Shown one piece after another: positions 4,201 through 23,805 of a DNA stretch of 23,805 nucleotides (its first letter is position 1; each line of letters begins with the position of its first letter). The DNA comes from a virus. Location: IMG/VR virus record IMGVR_UViG_3300010885_043251, positions 1 to 23,805 of that record; one strand, given 5' to 3'. The notes under the pieces were generated by a model. The model did no database searches. It was not told where the DNA came from and saw nothing but the letters and a program-made list of their open reading frames with translations. A program made the position numbers and the translations under genes.

Positions 4201-4705
4201 CTTTTTCAGCAATTTGGTCTTTACCAAGAATGCGATTCAGCAAATCGTTACGGCTCAAAACCATGCCCTCAGCAGTTTGTGTAGGCGCTGCGCCCGACTC
4301 TATGACCTTGGCATCCAGTGCTTGTTGTTGTTGATCCAGCCGCATTTTTTTCATCTGCAGATCAATCATCCGGAGTTTTTTGTCTAGCTTGGCTGTTTTT
4401 GCTGTGATAGCATGTCCCAGCATGTTGCTGGCTACCCCAAAGATTTCGCTGGCAAAGCGGCTGTCCACCTGCATGCCAAGATCCATTAGATCTTTGTAGC
4501 TGCCCTTGGCCATGTCACTCAGCTCATCCATTTCAGCGTCTGTAGCATCTAGCCCGCGCACTGCTGGAAGGGCATTGTCAACCTTGTCAATGGTGAGATC
4601 AAGTTCTGCTAGTAGTGCTTGGTTGACTGTGATGGCAGGAACTTCAGCGTCTATTTCTGCCGCAGATGGTGGGAGATCAAAGAGCTCTTCAAGTTTTCTT
4701 GTCAT
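4196..4705 (-). CDS. 16: Small terminase subunit, gp16-like
   Basis: In T4, gp16 is the small terminase subunit. It forms a ring that regulates the gp17 packaging motor and helps start DNA packaging. This 169-aa protein matches gp16 in length (T4 gp16 is 164 aa) and layout: an acidic N-terminal tail, two long helices predicted to form a coiled-coil hairpin (about residues 64-130, including SYKDLMDLGMQVDSRFAS and KLRMIDLQMKKMRLDQQQQ), and a polar C-terminal tail. The match is by pattern and memory, not a computed alignment. It follows gp4 by 29 bases. No good ribosome binding site is seen; instead ACTAAATA lies four bases before the ATG. The large terminase gp17, normally adjacent in T4, is absent from this window. 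Confidence 0.72.
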   Translation of the reverse strand: MTRKLEELFDLPPSAAEIDAEVPAITVNQALLAELDLTIDKVDNALPAVRGLDATDAEMDELSDMAKGSYKDLMDLGMQVDSRFASEIFGVASNMLGHAITAKTAKLDKKLRMIDLQMKKMRLDQQQQALDAKVIESGAAPTQTAEGMVLSRNDLLNRILGKDQIAEKE

Positions 4706-4709
4706 ACCC

Positions 4710-4717
4710 TATTTAGT
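4710..4717 (-). promoter_or_regulatory. Possible late promoter for gp16, 4 nt from ATG
   Basis: The minus strand reads ACTAAATA followed by GGGT and the gp16 ATG. It has two mismatches from consensus, so it is weak by itself. It has the same four-base distance to ATG as the exact late box at 10970, and no properly spaced ribosome binding site lies before gp16. Confidence 0.35.
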
Positions 4718-4734
4718 GGCTTCACAGCCGGGCA

Positions 4735-5169
4735 TTATCGTTTGCTGCCTTGATGAAAGATGTCGTTTTCTGTGATTACTCTAAAGGTCAGCCCTTGTGT
4801 TTTGCACCAGGCGGTGGCCGCAGCCCATTTGGCATAGTTGATTGCTACCACAGTACGATCACGACTGTTCATTTTGCTTTCAATCACACTTTGATTTTTG
4901 GGTTTGATTTCAATCAGTTCAGCTCGCATGGTATTTTCCCTGGTGCGGTAAGTGATCAAAAAGTCCGGAAAGTATCTGTGCATTTTGCCGTCAAGTGGAT
5001 GACGATACGGAATTGCCACGCACTCTGAACCCAATTGCAGCACATTGTCGTTGTTGTCTAGGAATGTCATGAACACCTGTTCCCAGCTGCTGCGCCAGGT
5101 TGGGGGCTTGTTACCTACATATTTTTTTGCATTTCTCACTTGAAAAATGCCTTTTGAAAAGTTAGCCAT
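4735..5169 (-). CDS. 4: Head completion protein gp4 (nuclease-like fold)
   Basis: T4 gp4 (also called gp50/4) completes DNA-filled heads before tail joining. The family has a TnsA/restriction-endonuclease-like core. This 144-aa protein (T4 about 150 aa) has the family layout: a basic N terminus (KGIFQVRNAKKYVGNKP), WRSSWEQVFMTFLDNN, then IPYRHPLDGKMHRYFPDFLI, followed by a strand with ELIEIKPKNQ. The E in SWE, the D in YFPDF and the E-x-K in EIKPK form the PD-(D/E)xK-like set. The rest is helix plus a final strand (WCKTQGLTFRVITE). The ATG at 5167-5169 has TTAGG five bases upstream. It lies between a 119-aa structural-type gene and gp16. This is one of the surest assignments here. Confidence 0.9.
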   Translation of the reverse strand: MANFSKGIFQVRNAKKYVGNKPPTWRSSWEQVFMTFLDNNDNVLQLGSECVAIPYRHPLDGKMHRYFPDFLITYRTRENTMRAELIEIKPKNQSVIESKMNSRDRTVVAINYAKWAAATAWCKTQGLTFRVITENDIFHQGSKR

Positions 5170-5182
5170 ACATGCCTAACCT

Positions 5183-5542
5183 TTATTGAACCACATTTCT
5201 AGCAGCGTAAAAGTTTGCAGTCACAGGCACACCCACACCCAGCAAGGTAGCACGGTTTCTGATAGTGTTCAAGTAATAGGCCATGCTGACATTGAGATTC
5301 ATTCCGGATACACCTTCAAATGCCTGCAACAGGGTCAAGGCCGGAATTTTTGTGTCTTGTGCCACCTTGAACAGACTCACAGTAAAATTGTCTGCTGCCA
5401 GTCGTGTGGTCATGGTTGATTTGAAGAAGCTGTTGACCACATCATATTCAGCCGCAGGAACGTCTACATCGTATTCATAAAATGCATCAAACACACGTAC
5501 TGTTTGATCTAGATTGGTGTTTTCGTAATTGATACTGGCCAT
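5183..5542 (-). CDS. Conserved 119-aa T4-like phage protein, probable virion or tail-assembly protein
   Basis: No named function is recognised. It is a compact soluble protein, mostly helical, with phrases such as RVFDAFYEYDVDVP, EYDVVNSFFKST and MAYYLNTIRNRATLLG, and no membrane segment or cysteines. From memory, similar small proteins lie directly after the tube-like structural protein in aquatic T4-like phages, which is the arrangement here. The start is two bases after the TAA of the 380-aa gene (TAATTATG), with only a weak AAGA upstream, so translation is probably coupled to that gene. A structural or assembly role is inferred from gene order. Confidence 0.75.
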   Translation of the reverse strand: MASINYENTNLDQTVRVFDAFYEYDVDVPAAEYDVVNSFFKSTMTTRLAADNFTVSLFKVAQDTKIPALTLLQAFEGVSGMNLNVSMAYYLNTIRNRATLLGVGVPVTANFYAARNVVQ

Positions 5543-5544
5543 AA

Positions 5545-6687
5545 TTATCTTGTGTTGGTTGGTGGAGTTTGTGGTGTTGGGAAGAACATACCAGTTGGGC
5601 GGCCCGGTACAGATCTCACTGCGCCTGGCAATGACCCTCGAATGGCATTTTTGCCCAGGGCAGTTGCTTCATTCACAGCCAAGCTGGCAATATTCTTGCC
5701 CTTGAATGTGTTGTAGGCCGTGCCGGCTTTTTGTGCTGCACCAATAAGTCCCAGTACGCCACCGCTAGACAAATCTTCCAGGATGCCGCCTCCTGCATCC
5801 AGCAAGCCGCCTTGGCCAAACACAGTGGCTCGAGACCCTGGACGACTGATTGGGCTCAAAGTTTGATCGTAGTGAGCAGGATCAGCAAAGCCTTGCACAT
5901 TGGCGTCAGGGCGCTGATTACCTATAGCACCTGAATAATATTTCACAGTTTCGTACGCTATGGTCATGCTGTTCTGCATAACACCACTGCCTTCGCTGTA
6001 GTTGTATTGGTCGTGACTCCAGTTAGTGATAAGTGGATTGATCAACACATATTCGGCTGTCTTGTGTTGATCCATGCCGTAAATTCTGATGTCTTTGAAA
6101 AAAGGTGGCTTGCCTGACGCCGAGCTTGTGCCATCATTGTAGCTTTCGCCTATATAACCCCAGTCGTTGACATCGCCAATTCTGGTGTCGTTATAGATGT
6201 CTCTGTTGTTGTATCCAAATCCTTTTTGCAAGTTAGCACTGTTACCTGCGCTGCCGTTTTGACTATTGGGTGCTAGATAATCTTGGCTGGGATCTTTGTA
6301 GTAGTAACTGTAGTAGTTGTACCACAGGTTGCGCGAGTTATCGCCGCCGTCGTCGTGAAATGTTAGTGTAACTGGATCATAATTGATCTTGGTCTGTACC
6401 ACTCGTTTGCGATTATACTGATTGAGTGTTTCGGCCGCCACAGTGTATTTTGGAAGATCCACGGTCTTCACAAGATAACTGAGACTGGTAATTTCATTTA
6501 CCCCTGCCAACTGACTCAGCGCAGGTATTTCAGCTGTGTTCAACGTGAAGCTCACGTGAAAGAGGAACTTGAACCTGGGTTTAAGTTCGTATGCGTTGGT
6601 AGTAAAGGTTTTGCTTGCGTGAGTATAATCACGCAAGCTATCCGCTGCGGTGAATCCTTTCCAGAATTCTTGGCCAAATGTTGGCAT
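5545..6687 (-). CDS. Tail-tube-like virion structural protein (gp19/gp48/gp54-type)
   Basis: This 380-aa protein carries a tail-tube-type core. FKFLFHVSF (about residue 40) starts the tube fold. It is followed by LVKTVDLPKYTVAAETLNQY, the sequence NRKRVVQTKINYDPVTLTFH, and later SLINPLITNWSHD-type strands (about 210-260). The Tyr-rich segment LWYNYYSYYYKD lies at about 122-133. The last third (about 280-380) is Gly/Ala-rich and may be flexible. In T4, proteins with this fold beyond gp19 are gp48 and gp54, which start the tube on the baseplate; which one this matches cannot be decided here. It starts next to the gp19 stop (GCATAATAATG), suggesting coupled expression with the tube protein. Confidence 0.8.
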   Translation of the reverse strand: MPTFGQEFWKGFTAADSLRDYTHASKTFTTNAYELKPRFKFLFHVSFTLNTAEIPALSQLAGVNEITSLSYLVKTVDLPKYTVAAETLNQYNRKRVVQTKINYDPVTLTFHDDGGDNSRNLWYNYYSYYYKDPSQDYLAPNSQNGSAGNSANLQKGFGYNNRDIYNDTRIGDVNDWGYIGESYNDGTSSASGKPPFFKDIRIYGMDQHKTAEYVLINPLITNWSHDQYNYSEGSGVMQNSMTIAYETVKYYSGAIGNQRPDANVQGFADPAHYDQTLSPISRPGSRATVFGQGGLLDAGGGILEDLSSGGVLGLIGAAQKAGTAYNTFKGKNIASLAVNEATALGKNAIRGSLPGAVRSVPGRPTGMFFPTPQTPPTNTR

Positions 6688-10826: not shown

Positions 10827-10898
10827 TGTTATTCTCCTAAAATTTTTATCATCTATTTGCTTGCAGATACCTGATGTACCCATGCAATCGCATACTGA

Positions 10899-10906
10899 TA
10901 TTTATA
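10899..10906 (-). promoter_or_regulatory. T4-type late promoter for gp18
   Basis: The minus strand reads TATAAATA here, the exact T4 late consensus. It lies 73 bases before the gp18 ATG. It is paired divergently with the plus-strand late promoter at 10970-10977. The late sigma factor that would read it is not in this window. Confidence 0.7.
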
Positions 10907-10969
10907 GGTATATTCAAAAAAGTGGCATCTACAGCAACCTTTAGCAAAGGTCCACTGGAAAAGATTCAG

Positions 10970-10977
10970 TATAAATA
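10970..10977 (+). promoter_or_regulatory. T4-type late promoter for HNH-like gene, 4 nt from ATG
   Basis: TATAAATA, the exact late consensus, is followed by four bases (TCCA) and the ATG at 10982. In T4 the start of transcription is about six bases after this box, which would be within or at the ATG, so the mRNA would have no leader and no ribosome binding site. Confidence 0.7.
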
Positions 10978-10981
10978 TCCA

Positions 10982-11329
10982 ATGCAAAGACCCATATGCA
11001 AAGCATGCGACCAACGACCTTGTGCTGTCAACTATTATCGTGACGGTGCAGCCCACTATCGAACAAGATGTGAGACCTGTGCTAGAAAACAAAGAGGAAT
11101 CAAAAGCAGAAAGCCACGTTGGGAAACAGCAGGCTACAAGAAAAAACCCGCATGTGACAAATGCGGGTTCAAGGCCAAACACTCAAGTCAATTATTGGTA
11201 CTGCATGCTGATGGTAATCTCAACAATACTGAACTTCGTAACTTGAAAACTGTTTGCTTGAATTGCGCTGCGGATCTAAGGCGCACGGATTCTATTTGGC
11301 GTCCAGGTGATCTTGAACCAGATGTGTGA
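10982..11329 (+). CDS. Cys-rich HNH-like zinc protein
   Basis: This 115-aa basic protein has two metal-binding units. The first uses CxxC pairs C6/C9 and C30/C33. The second is HNH-like, with C58/C61, then LVLHADGNLNN (H75, D77, N79), NLKTVC and C92/C95. The usual final His of the HNH motif is replaced by Ala-Ala after C95, so nuclease activity is uncertain and it may only bind nucleic acid. Similar proteins occur in aquatic T4-like phages, from memory. I start it at ATG 10982, not at 10874, because a perfect TATAAATA late promoter lies at 10970-10977 and the upstream region holds the gp18 promoter. It lies alone on the plus strand, and its 3' end overlaps the gp1 gene by 38 bases. Confidence 0.8.
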   Translation: MQRPICKACDQRPCAVNYYRDGAAHYRTRCETCARKQRGIKSRKPRWETAGYKKKPACDKCGFKAKHSSQLLVLHADGNLNNTELRNLKTVCLNCAADLRRTDSIWRPGDLEPDV

Positions 11330-11942
11330 CCTGTTCATACAGGTGATCTAGTGTGGAATTGTTGTCCAGCACAGCATCAAACTTTGTGCCTGCCCAGGCA
11401 TATTCGCTGGCATGAATTTTACTACGTTCCAGTTTGCCTTTGCTAATGCTCCAGTTAGAGTTGCCGTCGGGTCCGTGATTTACACTGACTGCTGCATCAT
11501 ACCACACAGGTTCTGGTCCACGGGTCACACGCACCACAATGCCGCCTGCTGCCTTGATTGACTTGATTTCGTTGGGAAACCTGCAGTCACTGATCACAAT
11601 GTCGTCTGTAGAGTTACGCAGTTTGTTTTCCAAGCTGGCAATCCAGATATCATCGTGAAATCCTTGTCTACAAACTTCTGTGCCCCAGTACTGCAACACC
11701 CAGCGTGGTGTTAGTTTGGGCAGTTTCAAACGTTCTGCCCACCATGGATCCACTTGTTCACGCCATTCGCGGGCTTGTTTTGTGCGGCCTTCCAGCAGTT
11801 CTCTGTTCCACCCAAACACATGGCTCACAGCGTCCTTGAGTGTGTTAGCAAAACTTTCTCTACGGAATTGATGTATGTTCACAAGATAGTCTGCAATGGT
11901 GTCTTTGCCACTTGAAATAAATCCCACAACTCCAATGATCAT
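11292..11942 (-). CDS. 1: Deoxynucleoside monophosphate kinase, gp1-like
   Basis: T4 gp1 phosphorylates dNMPs to dNDPs in phage DNA precursor synthesis. This 216-aa protein starts MIIGVVGFISSGKDT, a P-loop (G7 to T15) of the family form GxxxxGKDT. It continues with a fold typical of this kinase group: HQFRRESFANTLKDAVSHVFGW, then VLQYWGTEVCRQGF, DDIVISDCRFPNEIKSIKAAG and VVRVTRG. The SDCRFPNE segment is the conserved Asp/Arg region. Its ATG overlaps the exonuclease TGA (ATGA), with AAAGGA seven bases upstream, so the two are coupled. Its C-terminal codons overlap the convergent HNH-like gene. The base that each enzyme prefers cannot be told from sequence. Confidence 0.85.
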   Translation of the reverse strand: MIIGVVGFISSGKDTIADYLVNIHQFRRESFANTLKDAVSHVFGWNRELLEGRTKQAREWREQVDPWWAERLKLPKLTPRWVLQYWGTEVCRQGFHDDIWIASLENKLRNSTDDIVISDCRFPNEIKSIKAAGGIVVRVTRGPEPVWYDAAVSVNHGPDGNSNWSISKGKLERSKIHASEYAWAGTKFDAVLDNNSTLDHLYEQVTHLVQDHLDAK

Positions 11943-12463
11943 TTTAGTTCCTTTACGTTGAGATGTTTTAGTGTGGCTTGCAGCATGTCAATCTGACGGC
12001 GACAATCCTCTAGTGCATGATGACTAGTAGCAGGACGGGGCAGCTCAGGCCACAAACTATATATGGTACGACTGTCACGAACCACGTAAAACTGCCATGG
12101 AATAGGCTTGTTGTAGCTCTTGTAGGCATGCTCAATTATGTTCATGTCATAGGTGGGACCATTGGCCCAGATCAATCGGCTTTGCCAGATAAACTTGGCC
12201 AATTCATCCAAGGCCTGATCTAAAGGAATACGGTCTTGTTCGTTGAACGCTTCGTCCCGGGCTGCTGCTGGTTGGGTAGCCCACCAGTCTATGGTACCTT
12301 GCTGGATGCTACGAGCCTCTTGACTTTCTAGATCAATTCTAGCATAGTAATGCCGTTCATGATAGCCTGTGCCCAGCGGGTCAAAGCTCTGGGCTGCAAT
12401 AGTCAAAATAGTTGTATCGGGGCCTGTTCCTAGTCCTTCGATGTCGATCATTAAATCTGCCAT
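11939..12463 (-). CDS. dexA: DEDDh 3'-5' exonuclease, DexA-like
   Basis: T4 DexA is a 3'-5' exonuclease acting on single-stranded DNA. This 174-aa protein has the DEDDh set: D7 and E9 in LMIDIEGLG, D106 in ANGPTYDMN, and H148 with D153 in SHHALED. The GTIDWWATQPAAARDEAF segment (about 56-73) matches the DexA STIEWW block. T4 DexA is longer (227 aa). I start it at 12463 (MADLMIDIEG), giving the catalytic Asp at residue 7. An in-frame start at 12493 would add ten residues that fit no family and would place the start inside a likely promoter. Related domains include the Rv2179c-type exoribonucleases, so RNA as substrate is possible. It overlaps gp1 by four bases. Confidence 0.82.
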   Translation of the reverse strand: MADLMIDIEGLGTGPDTTILTIAAQSFDPLGTGYHERHYYARIDLESQEARSIQQGTIDWWATQPAAARDEAFNEQDRIPLDQALDELAKFIWQSRLIWANGPTYDMNIIEHAYKSYNKPIPWQFYVVRDSRTIYSLWPELPRPATSHHALEDCRRQIDMLQATLKHLNVKELK

Positions 12464-12506: not shown

Positions 12507-13268
12507 TTAGCCAATAACCCAGGTAATTGGCTGTGAACCATCTACGTAATTTGTCAATTCCAGTATCTTGGCATCCATTTGAATCTGCGCTTCTGATTTC
12601 ATGGCTGCGCCGTTCAAGCTGCCGCCGCCCTGTGGTCCGGCAATTGTGGCAAATTTTTCACGGGCTTCACCAATGATCATTTTGCAAACAGCAGTCATAT
12701 AGTCTTTGATCCATTGTTGGATTTGATAATCTTGCAGCAGGTTTACTTCAGGCTTGAGTTGGTATACCCATATCAGCACATTCTCACCAGAGCCTTTGGG
12801 ATCTCTAACCAGTTGTATTTTTTTGGTCACTGGGTTCCAGGTGTAGTTCATGTAGCCGCCAAACATACGTGCGGCCAGTTCCACATACTGTGTGTAAAAG
12901 TCATAGGTGGCCAGGCCACCACTGACATTGAAGTTCATCAAGTACACATTCATGCTGGCCTGCGAAAACGGATCAAAGTTTGATGCAAACGGTCCGCTGG
13001 AATCACCAAATGTTCGACGAAATATCTGACGCACACTCACAACTTCTTGCGGCAAGGTGTAGATGTTCATGTCCCGAATCAGTTCCATGAAAATGTACGC
13101 TTCTTCATAGGCATAGTTGGCTCGTTGACGATACACGCCAATGGTGCGTTGATATGCTGCTTCGTAGTGAGCAGGGTCAAGCTCAAGATCAATGATCTGA
13201 TCGCCCAGCATCAGTTTGCAATAATCTATTAGATTTTGTTTTAGCTCGGGCAGGGTATTTTCTGACAT
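12507..13268 (-). CDS. 13: Neck protein, gp13-like
   Basis: T4 gp13 is a neck protein that with gp14 joins the head to the tail. This 253-aa protein (T4 309 aa) follows the gp13 layout: an N-terminal helix pair (LPELKQNLIDYCKLMLGD, then ELDPAHYEAAYQRTIGVY), a central region with FMELIRDMNIYTLPQEVVSV and QYVELAARMFGGYMN, then QQWIKDYMTAVCKMIIGE and a conserved C terminus ending TWVIG (T4 ends ILVG). The IKDYMTAV-to-AGPQGGGSLNG block aligns with the T4 VKDYATAL block. The match is by eye. I start at 13268, where GGAG (13275-13278) lies six bases away, and not at 13358. An AATAAATA late-like octamer lies at 13286-13293. Confidence 0.75.
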   Translation of the reverse strand: MSENTLPELKQNLIDYCKLMLGDQIIDLELDPAHYEAAYQRTIGVYRQRANYAYEEAYIFMELIRDMNIYTLPQEVVSVRQIFRRTFGDSSGPFASNFDPFSQASMNVYLMNFNVSGGLATYDFYTQYVELAARMFGGYMNYTWNPVTKKIQLVRDPKGSGENVLIWVYQLKPEVNLLQDYQIQQWIKDYMTAVCKMIIGEAREKFATIAGPQGGGSLNGAAMKSEAQIQMDAKILELTNYVDGSQPITWVIG

Positions 13269-13285
13269 AAGGAACTCCAGTGGAG

Positions 13286-13293
13286 TATTTATT
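13286..13293 (-). promoter_or_regulatory. Late-promoter-like element for gp13-like gene
   Basis: The minus strand reads AATAAATA, one mismatch from TATAAATA. It lies 17 bases before the ATG, with GGAG in the leader. Expression of gp13 at late times from this box would separate it from the early-type unit upstream. Confidence 0.5.
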
Positions 13294-14182
13294 TGATTGT
13301 GCCTTTGCGTACCGGAGAGATTGCAAAGGTTTTCTTGATTACTGGGCAAAACTTGCACTGTGCAATTGGATTGTCTAGATTTGCCAGAAATTCTTCATGA
13401 TATTCACTAAAGTTATCTACTGACAAGGGCCGGTAAGAATTCAATAGTAGTCGATCCTGATCACTGATATCCAGGTGGTGTTGTTGATCAAACTCGGGTA
13501 GCAGGGCCGCAGGGCCGCACTTGTACAATTTTCCCCGTATAAAATGATAGGATTTGTACAGTACAAACGTGCAGGCATTGTGTGCCAGTTGCGGATCATT
13601 ATCAAACAAGGTGTAACGCCCTGATGCGGATGTTTGCACAGTTGATGTGTCAAACCGATTTTGATAGTAGACATTTATGAACACACCATTGTGATCAGAG
13701 TACTGATAATCTGTGCCCCATAAGTCGGGACGGTGGGTGTTTTGCTGCACCGGTCCGCTCAAAAACTCATGAATGTTTTGTTGCAGCATTTCTAGATCAT
13801 CTAGATTGTGCAGGCTTATGGCAATGCTATTCCTTATGCCATTTCTGGGACGAGCATGGGCAATGGCATCATATAGGCCTTTGACTTGATTTAGGCGGGT
13901 GCCATTGGTCAAAATTTGCACGGCGATCCCAAACGCATCATTGAGTCCGTGTACCCAAGACACAATGTCTGGATTCAACAAGGGCTCGCCACCTAGTATT
14001 GTGATTGCTTTTAGGTCAATCAGTTTGGCCCATTGCTGATACTGAGCCTCATGATCACTCCAGCGTTGCCAGCCTTTGAAATCAAAATTGTTGAATCGGT
14101 TGCATTGTTCACAAGTTAGATTGCAAACATTAGTGATGTAGACCTCTATTTTTTTAAACACAGGTCTATGGGGATTATTCAT
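13289..14182 (-). CDS. Radical SAM enzyme with C-terminal Cys-rich (SPASM-like) region
   Basis: This 297-aa protein has the radical SAM cluster motif CxxxCxxC (C20, C24, C27, in TNVCNLTCEQCN). It also has the GGEP motif at 64-67 and a TNGT strand at about 90-93. Four further cysteines at C204, C222, C276 and C279 (the last pair in CKFC) are spaced like an auxiliary cluster of SPASM or twitch type. Such enzymes mostly modify peptides or other proteins; the substrate here is unknown. It follows the 381-aa gene by seven bases, with no clear ribosome binding site, so it probably shares the sigma70-like promoter upstream. GGTAAATA lies four bases before the ATG, but this is partly formed by the previous stop codon. 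No obvious precursor peptide gene was seen nearby. Confidence 0.85.
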   Translation of the reverse strand: MNNPHRPVFKKIEVYITNVCNLTCEQCNRFNNFDFKGWQRWSDHEAQYQQWAKLIDLKAITILGGEPLLNPDIVSWVHGLNDAFGIAVQILTNGTRLNQVKGLYDAIAHARPRNGIRNSIAISLHNLDDLEMLQQNIHEFLSGPVQQNTHRPDLWGTDYQYSDHNGVFINVYYQNRFDTSTVQTSASGRYTLFDNDPQLAHNACTFVLYKSYHFIRGKLYKCGPAALLPEFDQQHHLDISDQDRLLLNSYRPLSVDNFSEYHEEFLANLDNPIAQCKFCPVIKKTFAISPVRKGTIK

Positions 14183-14189
14183 CCCATAT

Positions 14190-15335
14190 TTACCAGGCCT
14201 TTAGTACCACCAGGTTTTCAGTTCCACGTCCGTTGAATTGTGTCTCTGTAGTGGTCAGATCTTTGTAGATCTTTCTAGCAGCCGGTTTGCCTGCGGCCTG
14301 CATGGCCCGCACAATGTCAGCTGGTTTGCGCACAGTTTTCTGCATGCTTTCTGCTGTGCTGAAACCAATAATGCTGTTGCTCTTGACAGTAAACGTACCC
14401 ACATGCGAGTCCGCTACCACATGAATCAGCTTGCGTTTTTTGCTGTCATATAACCATGCTTCGCTTTTGTCCACTAGATTTGCAGGAGCAAGCCCTTTGA
14501 TTTTGAGGTCTACAATTTCTGCCTGGAACTTGAACTTGGCTGCACGTTTTTCTGGACTGATGGCCTTGGCCTTGCGGGGCTTGCGGTCAACCTTCTTGAT
14601 CTGCACGTATGCTCCGCAGTCATTGATCACTGCTTCACAAAACTTCACAATTCCTCGCATTTGAATCTTGGTAAAATTGCTGTAGCCTTCTGCCAGTTGG
14701 GCATCCTTGCCCCCAATCACAGTTTCAAATTCTACAAGTTTGCGTTTCCAATCTGATGCAATTTCGTTCACCATTTGTGGTGCTACATTTTTTCCACGTA
14801 TAATAGTGATGGGCTTGATGTCGGCACTCATCTTGGCACCGGACACAACAAAATCATCAAACAAGCCTTCTAGCTCGCCTGCACACTCCGTGAGTTTTTC
14901 TCGCAGTCGATCCTGGATGGTCTGGCGAGCAGGTGCTGTGTCTGTTTTTTCCACCTCTGCTTGTTGTTTGGTGCCCAGAGTTTCTGCCAGCATGTTGTCT
15001 AGTTGAATCTGTTCTGCTTCAGTCAAGTCCAGACCCACCTGGCTCATTCGGCACAACCAAGCTGTGGTTAGTCGTAGTGCAGAATCAGGAACACCTCGTA
15101 ACAGTCGCACATCGTTCTTGCGGCCATGTGTTTCCAAATAGCTCACTACCATGTCTCTGGCATCTTTTTTGCCATAAAAGTAATTGTACCAGCTAAACGC
15201 AGCAGTCAGCCGACTTACTCGATCATAAACGGGCTGTACACGCCAGGTGGGCTCATCGCCCATGAATTTGGTATCGGCGCTGCGTGGGTTTAACGGACGC
15301 ACAGTGGCGCGAGCTGTTTGAGCAGTGGTTTTCAT
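14190..15335 (-). CDS. Unidentified 381-aa protein under a sigma70-like promoter
   Basis: No function is recognised. I start at 15335 (MKTTAQTARATV), where AAGGAG lies four bases away, and not at an upstream ATG at 15404 that would sit inside the promoter. Visible features: a basic N terminus; YDRVSRLTAAFSWYNYFYG (about 37-55); helical region with LCRMSQVGLDLTEAEQIQLD; a charged region with DRLREKLTECAGELEGLFDD; a Lys/Arg-rich stretch RKPRKAKAISPEKR (about 250-265), which may bind nucleic acid; and a C-terminal block with LIHVVADSHVGTFTV. No transmembrane segment is seen. It is first in a unit with the radical SAM gene. From memory, similar proteins exist in aquatic T4-like phages without known function. 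Early-type expression is inferred from the promoter. Confidence 0.8.
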   Translation of the reverse strand: MKTTAQTARATVRPLNPRSADTKFMGDEPTWRVQPVYDRVSRLTAAFSWYNYFYGKKDARDMVVSYLETHGRKNDVRLLRGVPDSALRLTTAWLCRMSQVGLDLTEAEQIQLDNMLAETLGTKQQAEVEKTDTAPARQTIQDRLREKLTECAGELEGLFDDFVVSGAKMSADIKPITIIRGKNVAPQMVNEIASDWKRKLVEFETVIGGKDAQLAEGYSNFTKIQMRGIVKFCEAVINDCGAYVQIKKVDRKPRKAKAISPEKRAAKFKFQAEIVDLKIKGLAPANLVDKSEAWLYDSKKRKLIHVVADSHVGTFTVKSNSIIGFSTAESMQKTVRKPADIVRAMQAAGKPAARKIYKDLTTTETQFNGRGTENLVVLKAW

Positions 15336-15357
15336 GGTACTCCTTACTAATGCAGTA

Positions 15358-15386
15358 ATTATAACACAAACAGGATTATTGGTCAA
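15358..15386 (-). promoter_or_regulatory. Strong sigma70-like promoter for 381-aa and radical SAM genes
   Basis: The minus strand reads TTGACC (15381-15386), a 17-base spacer, and TATAAT (15358-15363): a perfect -10 and a five-of-six -35 at the best spacing. It lies about 20 bases before the ribosome binding site of the 381-aa gene. It is distinct from the late promoters and suggests host RNA polymerase, hence early-type expression. It is back-to-back with the late promoter at 15411. Confidence 0.82.
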
Positions 15387-15410: not shown

Positions 15411-15418
15411 TATAAATA
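15411..15418 (+). promoter_or_regulatory. T4-type late promoter for neck-like/gp15/Nudix operon
   Basis: TATAAATA is followed by seven bases (CAACACT) and the ATG at 15426. Transcription would start about two to three bases before the ATG. No Shine-Dalgarno sequence lies between. It would drive the neck-like, gp15 and Nudix genes. Confidence 0.72.
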
Positions 15419-15425
15419 CAACACT

Positions 15426-16778
15426 ATGCCAAGACTTTCAATGTGGCGTCCAAATCGGACCCGAGATTACCAATACCTAGATAAAATAATATCCGAACGC
15501 TACACTGTGGGCGGCCTGGATATCTACGTGCATCGCTACATGGGTCCGCAAACCGGTGGTGAAGATTCGGCGTTTTCTGGCAACGGAGACGCTACTCAAC
15601 CCATCTACGACACACTGAATCCTTTGAATATTCAAGATCTCTTGCTGTTGGAAAATCGTGACAGAATATACGATCAGGACATCTATGTCATGCGTGGCGT
15701 CTACAACCATCAGGACGTGGACTTTGATCTAAGCCAATTTGGCCTGTTTCTAAACAATGATACCTTGTTCATTACCTTTCACTACAACGACATGATTGAT
15801 TCATTTGGGCGCAAGCTCATGAACGGTGACGTGCTGGAAGTGCCCAACCTCAAAGATTATCATCCGTTGAACAACGAGATTCCTCAGCCCTTGCCCAGAT
15901 ACTATGTGGTGCAAGATGCTGACTATGCCACAGAAGGCATGAGTCAAACCTGGTTGCCACACATATGGCGTGTGAAGGCAACGCCAATGACCAACAACCA
16001 AGAGTTCAAAGACATACTGAAAAAGCCAGTGGTCACAGAACAAATCTGGGACAACGGCAACTACTATCCCACTGGTAGTATTGTCAATGCAGGTGATGTG
16101 TATTACCAGGCCCGAATCAATGTACCAGCTGATGTGGCTATTACCAATGCCACCTACTGGCAAGTGTACACTCCACTCACACAGAGTGATGTGTTCAGTA
16201 CCAGAACCAAGGACAACGAGCTTAATGATGCAATCCTAGCACAAGCCGATGTTGAAGTACCGCTGTCAGGATATGACACCCAGAAGTTTTATATTCTTCC
16301 CACAGTTAATGGACAGCCTGCTAACCCAGTGGGCTTGAACACCGCAAGTGGAACCACAGTTGACGGCACACAAGGTGGTGCTGATGTTACTCCTGTGGCC
16401 AACGGATACACTGTGGGCTACCTTACCGGCGATGGCGTTCCGCCTAATGGATTGCCTGTCACATCTGGCGTTGCCTTTCCATCCGTGGCAGTAGATGGCG
16501 ATTATTGCTTGCGCTTGGATTATTTTCCCAATCGCTTGTTCCGCTACAGTGGTCGTCGTTGGATCAAGATTGAGGACAAAGTGCGAACAGATCTAAACAA
16601 TGGACCCACCAATGAAACTCAACGCTCAGGCTTTGTGAACAATACATACACTGTGCGCACAAACGACATTGGCAATATTCCAAGTCGACAGAGCTTGAGT
16701 GAAATACTCAAGCCACGTGCAGACAATGGCGACCAGGGCGGGTTCTTACCACCTAATCCGCCACCAATTGGAAGATAA
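15426..16778 (+). CDS. Virion structural protein, possibly gp14-like neck protein
   Basis: This 450-aa protein belongs to the virion set. It starts MPRLSMWRPNRTRDYQYLDK. Key segments are DLLLLENRDRIYDQDIYVMRG (about 78-98), then SQFGLFLNNDTLFITFHYNDM and KLMNGDVLEVPNLKDYHP, YYVVQDADYATEG, and TWLPHIWRVKATPM. The order of these resembles the T4 gp14 core (MRGVECYYVP, SKFGMQVQDEVTLSI, GDLIYFP, FEINWVEP), but the similarity is weak. A carbohydrate-binding-like segment (about 204-249) contains YYPTGSIVNAGDVYYQA and ATYWQVYT. The C-terminal part is Pro/Gly-rich. It lies directly before gp15, as gp14 does in T4. A perfect late promoter at 15411-15418 is only seven bases from the ATG. Confidence 0.8.
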   Translation: MPRLSMWRPNRTRDYQYLDKIISERYTVGGLDIYVHRYMGPQTGGEDSAFSGNGDATQPIYDTLNPLNIQDLLLLENRDRIYDQDIYVMRGVYNHQDVDFDLSQFGLFLNNDTLFITFHYNDMIDSFGRKLMNGDVLEVPNLKDYHPLNNEIPQPLPRYYVVQDADYATEGMSQTWLPHIWRVKATPMTNNQEFKDILKKPVVTEQIWDNGNYYPTGSIVNAGDVYYQARINVPADVAITNATYWQVYTPLTQSDVFSTRTKDNELNDAILAQADVEVPLSGYDTQKFYILPTVNGQPANPVGLNTASGTTVDGTQGGADVTPVANGYTVGYLTGDGVPPNGLPVTSGVAFPSVAVDGDYCLRLDYFPNRLFRYSGRRWIKIEDKVRTDLNNGPTNETQRSGFVNNTYTVRTNDIGNIPSRQSLSEILKPRADNGDQGGFLPPNPPPIGR

Positions 16779-16789: not shown

Positions 16790-18190
16790 ATTCAAAATTT
16801 TTTCTATGACGCACAAATCCGTAGATTTCTGTTGCAGTTTACACGCATGGTCAGCAATTTTCAAATTGAATATGGCAACGAAACTGATGGCGTAAACAAA
16901 GCAGCGTTAATTCGTGTGCCAGTTCGTTACGGCGATGCCAGTCGAAATGCACAGGTGATCCTGCAGGAGAATTCAAGAAATTCAATGCCAGCCAGTCCTT
17001 TGATGACTTTTTATATTTCAAGTCTCAACTACGATCGCCCCAGAATGCAGGATCCAACCTTTGTGAGCAAGATCAATGTGCGTCAACGCACCTACGACAC
17101 TGCCACAGAAAGCTACGAAACCACTCAAGGCAATGCTTTCTCAATTGAACGACTGATGCCAGTGCCATACAAGATGGGCATTAACCTGGACTTCTGGAGC
17201 AGCAACACCAATCAAAAGTTTCAGATGTTTGAACAAATCTCCACCTTGTTCAATCCCAGCTTGGAAATACAAAGCACGGACAACTACATTGACTGGACCA
17301 GCCTCACAGTAGTGGAACTGGAAGATATCATATTCACCTCAAGAAGCATACCAATGGGTGCAGACAATCCCATTGACATGATGACTTTCAAATTCAACAT
17401 ACCAATCTGGATTTCATCTCCGGCCAAGGTCAGAAAACTAGGTGTGGTAGAACGTATAATTGTCAGCATCTACGACGCACAAGGCGACTTGAACAATGCA
17501 GTAACCAACAACGACTTGTTGCTGGGCACTAGACAAGTGATCACACCGTTTAACTGGGCTGTGGTGTTGATTGGCAACAAAATACAATGTTTGCAACAAC
17601 TGAGCCTGCCACAGGAACCGGGCAACGATACTCTAACTCCGCCACAAATTGTAGCAGACAGTAACCTGTTATGGGCTGCTGTTATCGGCACCTACGGTGT
17701 GCTGCGCCCGGGCATTAGTCAACTTAGATTGCTGCAAGAAGATGGCACAGAAATAATTGGCACAATCGCACAAGATCCTAATGATGATCGCTTTGTAATT
17801 TTTGATGTGGATACCGATACTACTCCGCAGAACACACTTGAACCGATTGACGCTGTGATCAATCCCTTGGTAAGTGGACCACAAGACGGCCTAGATTCTG
17901 CCATGGACGGACAACGTTATTTGCTGACCGAAGCCACTGGCGATGAATACAATACTACTCCTGCTGTGGCCTGGGTAGGTGCCAACGGTAGACAACTGGT
18001 AGCAGAAGCCAATGACATCATTCAGTACTCCAACAACTACTGGCGTGTGGTGTTTAGAGCTGTGGGTGCTGCTGCTGGACAGTATGTTACCAACATAACC
18101 ACTGGCATACAGTACGAGTGGAATGGTGCGGCCTGGGTCAAGAGCTACCAGGGTGTTTATCCCGGTGGCACCTGGAGTCTTGTGCTTTGA
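16790..18190 (+). CDS. 15: Tail sheath stabiliser and completion protein gp15, ATT start proposed
   Basis: gp15 caps the tail tube and sheath at the end that joins the head. The frame from 16790 encodes NFFYDAQIRRFLLQFTRMVS, the gp15 N terminus (T4: YFYNSSFRRYATLMGDLFS). It continues with IRVPVRYGDASRN, the LNYDRPRMQ segment, MPVPYKMGINLDFWSSNTNQ, FEQISTLFNPSLEIQS and SRSIPMGADNPID. No ATG or GTG precedes this. The best start is ATT at 16790 with AAGGGG (16777-16782) seven bases before it; TTG at 16832 would delete the conserved N terminus. At 466 aa it is longer than T4 gp15 (272). The extra C-terminal part from about 240 ends with YVTNITTGIQYEWNGAAW, as in aquatic relatives from memory. Confidence 0.88.
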   Translation: MQNFFYDAQIRRFLLQFTRMVSNFQIEYGNETDGVNKAALIRVPVRYGDASRNAQVILQENSRNSMPASPLMTFYISSLNYDRPRMQDPTFVSKINVRQRTYDTATESYETTQGNAFSIERLMPVPYKMGINLDFWSSNTNQKFQMFEQISTLFNPSLEIQSTDNYIDWTSLTVVELEDIIFTSRSIPMGADNPIDMMTFKFNIPIWISSPAKVRKLGVVERIIVSIYDAQGDLNNAVTNNDLLLGTRQVITPFNWAVVLIGNKIQCLQQLSLPQEPGNDTLTPPQIVADSNLLWAAVIGTYGVLRPGISQLRLLQEDGTEIIGTIAQDPNDDRFVIFDVDTDTTPQNTLEPIDAVINPLVSGPQDGLDSAMDGQRYLLTEATGDEYNTTPAVAWVGANGRQLVAEANDIIQYSNNYWRVVFRAVGAAAGQYVTNITTGIQYEWNGAAWVKSYQGVYPGGTWSLVL

Positions 18191-22973: not shown

Positions 22974-23805
22974 TTAAATTCTTCCCACCACAATTTCAAT
23001 TGTGCCGGTGTCGCCGTTGAAATCTTCAACAGCTTTGCCAATTACTGTGCCCATGGCAGGTGTAGCACAGGCCTGTGCATGACCGTTGCCTGCACTTACC
23101 ATCATGTCACCTTTGCGTACTGTGCCCACTACCAGAGCAGGTACTCGACCTGTCAGTGCCAGGGCTGTGACATTTTCAGCTTTGAGCATGCTGTTCATCA
23201 AGTGAGCAGGATGAGTAGATACTATGCCTGCCACTCTTGAATCTGCTGTTTCGGTTGCCAGTGTGACTTCGTGTGTGCCACCAAAACTCAACACAGTACC
23301 TGGTGCGTAGTCAGCATCGGCTGAATAATTTTCTGCCAAGTCAGCGTATTGTGCTGATGTTGCTTTAGCAAACACAGTGTTGAATGTTACTGTAGAAGTG
23401 CCAATATTGCCCACGCCAGTTGTGTTGTTGTTGTTGATGTTGCCACCACTGATGTTCCCAGTTGATACTGTCAAACTTGACCCAGTGATTGCTGCACCAG
23501 TGATTGCACCAGTAACACTGACTGTGGTACCTGTGAACAGTGTAGCATTGACATTGGCTCCGCCCAGTACATTGCCACCTGTGATGTTGCCTGTTACACT
23601 GACTGTGGTACCTGTGAATAGTGTGGCGTTGACATTGGCTCCGCCCAGTACATTGCCACCTGTGATGTTGCCTGTTACACTGACTGTGGTACCTGTGAAT
23701 AGTGTGGCGTTGACGTTGGCTCCGCCCAGTACATTGCCACCTGTGATGTTGCCTGTTACACTGACTGTGGTACCTGTGAATAGTGTGGCGTTGACGTTGG
23801 CTCCG
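22974..23805 (-). CDS. Tail fibre protein, C-terminal part (runs off right edge)
   Basis: The frame is open from the stop at 22974 to the window edge with no Met start, so the N terminus lies outside. The visible N-terminal side (about 110 residues) is a 27-residue tandem repeat (81 bp each) rich in Gly, Thr, Val, Asn: TVSVTG, GGNVLGGANVNA, TLFTG. Then comes STGNISGGNINNNN, and a C-terminal domain containing YADLAENYSADADYAPGTVL, GGTHEVTLATETADSRVAG and AGNGHAQAC. This last domain is typical of phage tail fibre or receptor-binding proteins. A TTG at 23472-23474 is not the true start, as the repeat frame continues above it. The host receptor is unknown. Confidence 0.82.
   Translation of the reverse strand, partial: GANVNATLFTGTTVSVTGNITGGNVLGGANVNATLFTGTTVSVTGNITGGNVLGGANVNATLFTGTTVSVTGNITGGNVLGGANVNATLFTGTTVSVTGAITGAAITGSSLTVSTGNISGGNINNNNTTGVGNIGTSTVTFNTVFAKATSAQYADLAENYSADADYAPGTVLSFGGTHEVTLATETADSRVAGIVSTHPAHLMNSMLKAENVTALALTGRVPALVVGTVRKGDMMVSAGNGHAQACATPAMGTVIGKAVEDFNGDTGTIEIVVGRI
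23500..23805. repeat. 81-bp in-frame tandem repeat in fibre gene (four visible copies, last cut)
   Basis: Copies start at 23500, 23581, 23662 and 23743, spaced exactly 81 bp, and the fourth is cut by the window edge. The first copy (23500-23580) is more divergent; the second and third are almost identical. Each encodes 27 residues (TVSVTGNITGGN- and VLGGANVNATLFTG-type). The repeat lies in the fibre gene frame, so it forms protein structure and is not a CRISPR array. Length change by recombination between copies is plausible. Confidence 0.95.

Follow-up and report, generated by a model that had tools for sequence, protein, structure and literature searches.

In a T4-like phage fragment, the gene for a radical SAM enzyme lies directly behind the gene for a 381-aa protein (p381), and our analysis indicates that this enzyme is very probably an exchangeable cargo and not a partner of p381. 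A preliminary description of this DNA had paired the two proteins, with p381 as the partner or target of the enzyme. In relatives, each gene occurs independently of the other, in both directions, which is the observation that the description itself had named as contrary to its proposal. The obligate co-occurrence of a two-gene system of enzyme and p381 was not found, and we replace that system by a resident gene and an exchangeable enzyme slot.

Layout of the locus and its promoters

The window, by which we mean the whole stretch of DNA analysed, is a 23.8-kb fragment (23,805 nucleotides) of an IMG/VR virus record. It shows the gene order of a T4-like contractile-tailed phage, including genes for the tail tube, sheath, head closure, neck, a gp15-like protein and large virion proteins. 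Among isolates, its sheath is closest to those of jumbo phages infecting Agrobacterium, Sinorhizobium and Pseudomonas (at about 41-44% identity). Related contigs are as long as 212-344 kb. Both open reading frames were found where they had been described, on the minus strand: p381 at 14190..15335 and the 297-aa enzyme at 13289..14182, 7 nt past the p381 stop codon. They lie between a divergent gp13-like structural gene (15426-16778) and the neck or head-tail adaptor gene (12507..13268, minus strand; phrog_211), just past which are a deoxynucleotide monophosphate kinase (PF21448) and an RNase-H-like exonuclease. Scans of the window for tRNA genes and Rfam families gave no hit.

The promoter of p381 (15358..15386, minus strand), located by motif scan and conservation, consists of TTGACC, a 17-nt spacer and TATAAT with the TG of an extended -10. 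With 11 of 12 matching positions it is the only sigma-70-like site of that quality in 12 kb; at the 9/12 level the region holds 25 sites, mildly above the 18.6 +/- 4.5 of shuffles. A site of at least 10/12 was present in 56 of the 70 distinct p381 upstream regions, compared with 3.1% of shuffles, and it was conserved with or without the enzyme gene downstream. The same scan upstream of the neck, gp13, sheath and gp15 genes, and of the enzyme gene itself, gave 0-3%. The p381 upstream regions are mutually related, so that these counts speak for conservation but cannot be taken as independent of one another; it is because of this conservation that we judge the promoter real, in agreement with the host-type promoter of the preliminary description. 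The motif TTGACY, spacer, TGnTATAATT occurred 13 times in five of seven related contigs (0 for a reversed-pattern control) and, away from p381, precedes an AAA ATPase gene and small unknown genes. An AAGGAG ribosome-binding site lies at 15340..15345 (minus strand), and we set the start of p381 at the ATG at 15335, because a start giving the longer, 404-aa frame would place the promoter inside the coding region. That the two genes and the promoter are present is practically certain.

Late-type motifs mark both boundaries of the unit. Upstream, TATAAATA at 15411..15418 (plus strand) precedes the divergent gp13-like gene; downstream, AATAAATA at 13286..13293 (minus strand) precedes the neck gene and overlaps the stop codon of the cargo. 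Irrespective of cargo, 74 of 83 distinct loci have TAAATA close to the neck ATG, often overlapping the stop codon of the preceding gene. The view of an early-type unit embedded among late genes was thus supported as to layout, and the type of promoter makes early-type transcription of the unit likely.

Several other features of the window are worth recording. The exonuclease-kinase pair (11292-12463, minus strand) may be a second early-type unit: in relatives a sigma-70-like extended -10 site often lies upstream (62 of 79 at 9/12 or better), and the window itself has only an 8/12 site (TTGCTG-17-TATACT). A small HNH/zinc-finger-like gene (10874-11329) occupies the opposite, plus strand between sheath and kinase, a position kept in almost every relative; the TATAAATA motifs at 10970 (plus) and 10906 (minus) are divergent. 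The gp15-like gene shares 73 nt (18118-18190) with the NUDIX gene, which is read in a different frame, and in a related locus (L112) both matches fall inside one open reading frame (4565-6295). Tandem protein repeats (GANVNATLFTGTTVSVTGNITGGNVLG) were seen at about 23474-23805 (minus strand), at the end of a fibre-like open reading frame that leaves the window.

p381 and the slot behind it

p381 matched phrog_11903 over its full length (E 1.9e-54, residues 31-380 on 27-382 of 383), and relatives with 23-27% identity were found in 42 isolate records, among them those of Caulobacter phage Cr30, Sinorhizobium phages phiN3 and phiM12, Stenotrophomonas phage Moby, Pseudomonas phage PA5oct and Ochrobactrum phage OC. 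Searches of Pfam, NCBIfam, PADLOC and PDB sequences gave no match. The structural model of p381 has good local and poor global confidence (pLDDT 81, pTM 0.37), and its matches in BFVD were only other uncharacterised phage proteins; a KTSC-like match of the C-terminal part was rejected as faint (probability 0.23, E above 3).

Both in this group and in PA5oct, members of phrog_11903 precede the neck gene; those of phiN3, OC, Moby and Cr30 have genes of non-structural type around them (RNase H, DNA ligase, glycosyltransferase, glutaredoxin). The layout in PA5oct is that of the window, at about 26% identity of the p381 homologue (EST35_0192). Ahead of this gene stand a terminator-like repeat and a promoter, TTGACA...TACAAT; at its end, the stop codon overlaps the AAATAAATA that precedes the neck gene, which follows directly, and the interval holds no radical SAM gene. 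In the PA5oct record an ESI-MS/MS mark accompanies the neck protein, the structural protein after it and the sheath, but the p381 homologue carries none, which suggests that p381 is not a virion protein. Our best guess is that p381 is a non-virion accessory protein expressed early.

The closest comparisons show p381 without the enzyme. Proteins 97-98% identical to that of the window occur in three loci that lack it (L063, L064, L065). One of these, L065, is 90-91% identical to the window over 9.8 kb and is without only positions 13282..14190, the cargo unit; the two flanks of the missing segment, with alignments of 2756 and 7091 nt, are 90.9% and 90.0% identical, respectively. The preliminary description had called for a check of co-occurrence in related phages, and this spoke against the pairing: p381 was found without the enzyme in 54 contigs having both p381 and the neck gene, and the enzyme occurs without an adjoining p381 at a second site, next to IscU and IscA genes. 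Among isolate phages, a p381 relative is present in the 42 records mentioned and an enzyme relative in 2, with none in common.

The histories of the two genes differ as well. A tree built from 66 p381 sequences requires at least 11 changes in the presence of the enzyme, at least 6 of which are forced by well-supported branches. Enzyme and p381 divergence correlated with a Spearman coefficient of 0.28, compared with 0.80 for p381 and gp13; in the same pairwise identities the enzyme gave 0.05-0.18 with its other neighbours and p381 gave 0.53-0.81 with its own. Two loci carry two enzymes (L020, L048). In two others (L130:9131-9478 and L131:6002-6349) a truncated remnant of 115 aa abuts the late-type motif of the neck gene, a case of loss in progress. 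The kinase and exonuclease genes are present with or without the enzyme.

Adjacency in itself is regular. The enzyme starts 7-10 nt past p381 in most loci, and in searches from the window's enzyme p381 lay before the enzyme wherever upstream sequence was present; the enzyme prefers the slot behind p381 as its home, which is no sign of a partnership. A 47%-identical protein binned as part of a Legionella MAG (L142) was considered as a bacterial relative and rejected, as the fragment belongs to this phage group, with radical SAM enzyme, neck, exonuclease and kinase genes in order; being mis-binned, it is uninformative on the host.

At the second site, enzymes 49-52% identical to a member of the family in locus L047 lie immediately ahead of genes for phage IscU and IscA. 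The enzyme family has this home in 7 of the 74 IscU loci with enough upstream sequence, so IscU is not an obligate partner either. Related jumbo-phage contigs encode IscU (NifU_N) and mostly also IscA (Fe-S_biosyn), as observed across loci L275, L276, L278 and L279 and contigs G001-G004 and G008-G011. Two contigs (G008, G009) have the enzyme at the IscU/IscA site and p381 elsewhere with no enzyme beside it; two (G001, G002) have the enzyme behind p381 and an IscU site without it; two more (G003, G004) have no member of the enzyme family. In the four contigs that carry the enzyme, the two slots are mutually exclusive, which we take as a lead only.

Other genes accompany the enzyme in part of the family. 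Among 32 enzyme representatives, a GDSL-like hydrolase followed as companion in 10 and a glycosyltransferase-like protein in 6, and nothing followed in 15; the enzyme of the window has no companion. Companion labels changed 5 times on the enzyme tree against 18.5 times in shuffles, and because they cluster in this way we conclude that companions are inherited with the enzyme. The GDSL-like label rests on a best Pfam E of 2.6e-5, with other members below the cut-off; the glycosyltransferase-like companion has no Pfam match and takes its label from one local 28% match to a protein without a Pfam family, which belongs to a glycan-type cluster of a related contig. That cluster also encodes a carbamoyltransferase, a SPASM radical SAM protein and a DUF6071 protein. 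The glycan-type cluster at L238 (G001:14000-23000), from a related jumbo phage, comprises these three together with putative glycosyltransferases and an amidinotransferase-like protein.

Class and chemistry of the radical SAM enzyme

The enzyme matched the Pfam Radical_SAM family (PF04055) with 43.4 bits against a cut-off of 29.5. Its CX3CX2C motif, Cys20, Cys24 and Cys27 (14102..14125, minus strand), is invariant in the homologue alignment and is followed by GGEP at residues 64-67. Four further cysteines, C204, C222, C276 and C279, are conserved in at least 97% of 69 homologues. Values of dN/dS against the nearest relatives were 0.04-0.11, and therefore this is a real gene under purifying selection.

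The AlphaFold model of the enzyme (pLDDT 85, pTM 0.86) gave as its first four Foldseek matches chains of SpeY only, annotated 'Twitch Radical SAM Dehydrogenase' (E 9e-12, TM 0.64); the next match was MoaA at 9e-7, about five orders of magnitude behind, and ChlB, EpeE and SuiB were also among the matches. SpeY acts in spectinomycin biosynthesis, on an aminocyclitol or sugar substrate. It was also the best PDB match of the enzyme's sequence profile (1.3e-5), and its auxiliary stretch (CKLAHFWNSHTVYDGWLYRC) aligned with the Cys-X17-Cys of the enzyme family, an alignment block that is not significant alone. Since identity to SpeY is low (17-19%, about 4.5 A rmsd), the chemistry need not be common to both.

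The arrangement C204-X12-G-X4-C222 (13517..13573, minus strand), of the CX(9-15)GX4C type, together with C276-X2-C279 (13346..13357, minus strand), is conserved in the 69 sequences and fits the twitch domain, each motif supplying two candidate ligands of an auxiliary cluster. The SPASM family PF13186 did not match the enzyme, which has only four conserved C-terminal cysteines as against the seven-cysteine motif, and scores for the NCBIfam model NF033640 of twitch domain-containing radical SAM proteins (31 bits against 170) were below the cut-off. Viperin, QueE, MoaA and NrdG labels were likewise rejected on curated cut-offs. The enzyme is almost certainly a twitch radical SAM enzyme, with cluster binding predicted from its conserved cysteines. 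The extra cysteines that had been likened to those of peptide-modifying SPASM enzymes are therefore present, and they point to a one-cluster twitch domain, not to a full two-cluster SPASM domain. With its CNRFN motif, the sequence family is a new one, forming its own clade with two specific homes.

The auxiliary cluster of BtrN has four cysteine ligands and a low potential and is the proposed acceptor of the substrate electron, and its substrate is an aminocyclitol or sugar; that of MoaA has three cysteine ligands and an open iron (PMC9012708). Because its four conserved cysteines fit BtrN and not MoaA, we read the enzyme as an oxidoreductase, a chemistry that homology makes somewhat more probable than not. 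SpeY (PDB 7wzv/7wzx/7x0b) and BtrN share with it the one-cluster twitch architecture and CX3CX2C: SpeY is the best structural match over nearly the full length of the enzyme, with the auxiliary motif aligned, and BtrN, absent from the fold matches listed, has four auxiliary cysteines as the enzyme does (PMC9012708). Both, however, belong to aminocyclitol antibiotic pathways, whereas the enzyme is phage-borne with no antibiotic pathway, and the likeness is one of fold and motif only.

Possible substrates and role in infection

The twitch motif recurs in bacterial proteins of about 23% identity, from Planctomycetes, Gastranaerophilales and Clostridia. GT2 glycosyltransferases made up 18 of 102 close neighbours of such bacterial relatives, compared with 4 of 63 genes lying farther off in these or similar loci, a control under which the enrichment shrank; other close neighbours were epimerases, a GDP-mannose dehydratase, GT25, NeuB, TupA and sulfotransferases. 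We regard this surface-glycan context as a moderate enrichment. A distant relative of the enzyme in S-SCSM2R also sits among glycosyltransferases. Taken with the role of SpeY and with the companions of the enzyme, a sugar or glycan is a plausible, still tentative, substrate.

The reading that we prefer, also tentatively, is that of p381 as resident gene and of a cargo-slot twitch enzyme acting as an oxidoreductase on a surface-glycan sugar or its precursor. p381 is the resident gene under a host-type, predicted early promoter, set between divergent late structural genes; the cargo slot extends from its stop codon to the neck gene's own late promoter, and an enzyme in this slot would ride on the p381 transcript. 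The enzyme would likely work as SpeY and BtrN do, the CX3CX2C cluster cleaving SAM, the 5'-deoxyadenosyl radical taking a hydrogen from a hydroxyl-bearing carbon and the four-cysteine auxiliary cluster accepting the second electron, which would yield a ketone (or an epimer, given a hydrogen donor). With a surface-glycan sugar or nucleotide-sugar precursor as the likely substrate, the envelope of the infected cell or a phage-made glycan may be altered early, for example masking receptors from competing phages. Such a purpose, the alteration of the cell surface or of a phage glycan, is a doubtful part of the reading. More speculative still is that, in large T4-like phages, a phage-specific family of twitch enzymes forms a movable module, placed in either slot (behind p381 or ahead of IscU/IscA) with exchangeable hydrolase or glycosyltransferase-like companions, as an oxidative glycan-tailoring system that would be fed by the phage's Fe-S assembly proteins and would act early on the cell surface or on a phage glycan.

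Other substrates would imply other roles. The enzyme might modify a nucleotide, RNA or a phage DNA base (a queuosine-like change or hypermodification, for instance), helped by the kinase and exonuclease just past the neck gene. QueE-type models match its core weakly and the GTP cyclase MoaA comes second among the fold matches, yet the scores are far below the curated cut-offs (QueE 35.7 of 260, MoaA 36.4 of 284), the two neighbouring genes are present regardless of the enzyme, and four auxiliary cysteines are conserved here against three in MoaA (PMC9012708); we consider this improbable. A modified protein or peptide, whether p381 itself, a virion protein encoded nearby or one of the host, is slightly less probable again. 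C-terminal cysteines beyond the core are common to SPASM peptide maturases, ChlB, EpeE and SuiB appear among the fold matches, and the gene follows p381 closely; against this stand the single auxiliary cluster, scores far below the cut-offs of peptide-maturase models, p381 up to 98% identical without the enzyme, the enzyme without an adjoining p381, their weak co-variation, and the PA5oct homologue that adjoins the neck gene directly. About equally improbable is that the enzyme is a selfish or neutral passenger kept by hot-spot recombination, with no stable function for these phages: its repeated gain and loss, the decayed copy in two loci and its exchangeable neighbours would accord with this, but purifying selection is strong and all catalytic cysteines are conserved. 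A viperin-like enzyme making chain-terminating nucleotides, as a phage-carried defence against competitors, is very improbable, as the prokaryotic viperin model, despite giving the best curated NCBIfam E-value (6e-10), and the PADLOC pVip match (3e-12) cover only residues about 11-99, a core common to many radical SAM enzymes, with 38.7 bits against the NF038283 cut-off of 180, and as the four auxiliary cysteines are conserved and viperin lies far behind SpeY in fold. The defence role put forward in the preliminary description gained no positive evidence, the only PADLOC match being this one to viperin over the shared core (residues 12-99).

Our preferred reading, of a resident p381 and a slot for a sugar-directed twitch enzyme, has precedents in its mobile part. 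Close relatives among the T4-like pelagimyophages differ by gain or loss of a radical SAM cassette (PMC7029224), and in one T4-like environmental viral genome an A-type Fe-S carrier is encoded alongside as many as 12 radical SAM genes (PMC5332604). Gain and loss of such cassettes in T4-like phages is thus already known, and the enzyme adds a further member; in contrast to those cassettes, which belong to a host-recognition cluster, its slot has an early-type gene on one side and the neck gene on the other. The site also resembles the promoter-early stem-loop (PeSL) cassettes of T4-type phages (Arbiol 2010 and Comeau 2014), as far as these are described where cited in PMC4503421, in having an early promoter among late genes at a place of gene exchange; it differs from that description in that the exchanged gene lies downstream of p381 and not between two such elements. 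Of 45 distinct relatives bearing the promoter, 10 have a stem-loop directly upstream of it, as has PA5oct; in the window no stem-loop precedes the promoter.

In summary, the distinction between a resident gene and the slot behind it matters for the annotation of such loci from adjacency alone. p381, an early-type gene conserved in T4-like phages whose hosts range from Pseudomonas to Caulobacter, becomes a separate target for studies of host takeover. If the sugar reading is true, these phages would carry an oxidative step on glycans with an iron-sulfur supply of their own.
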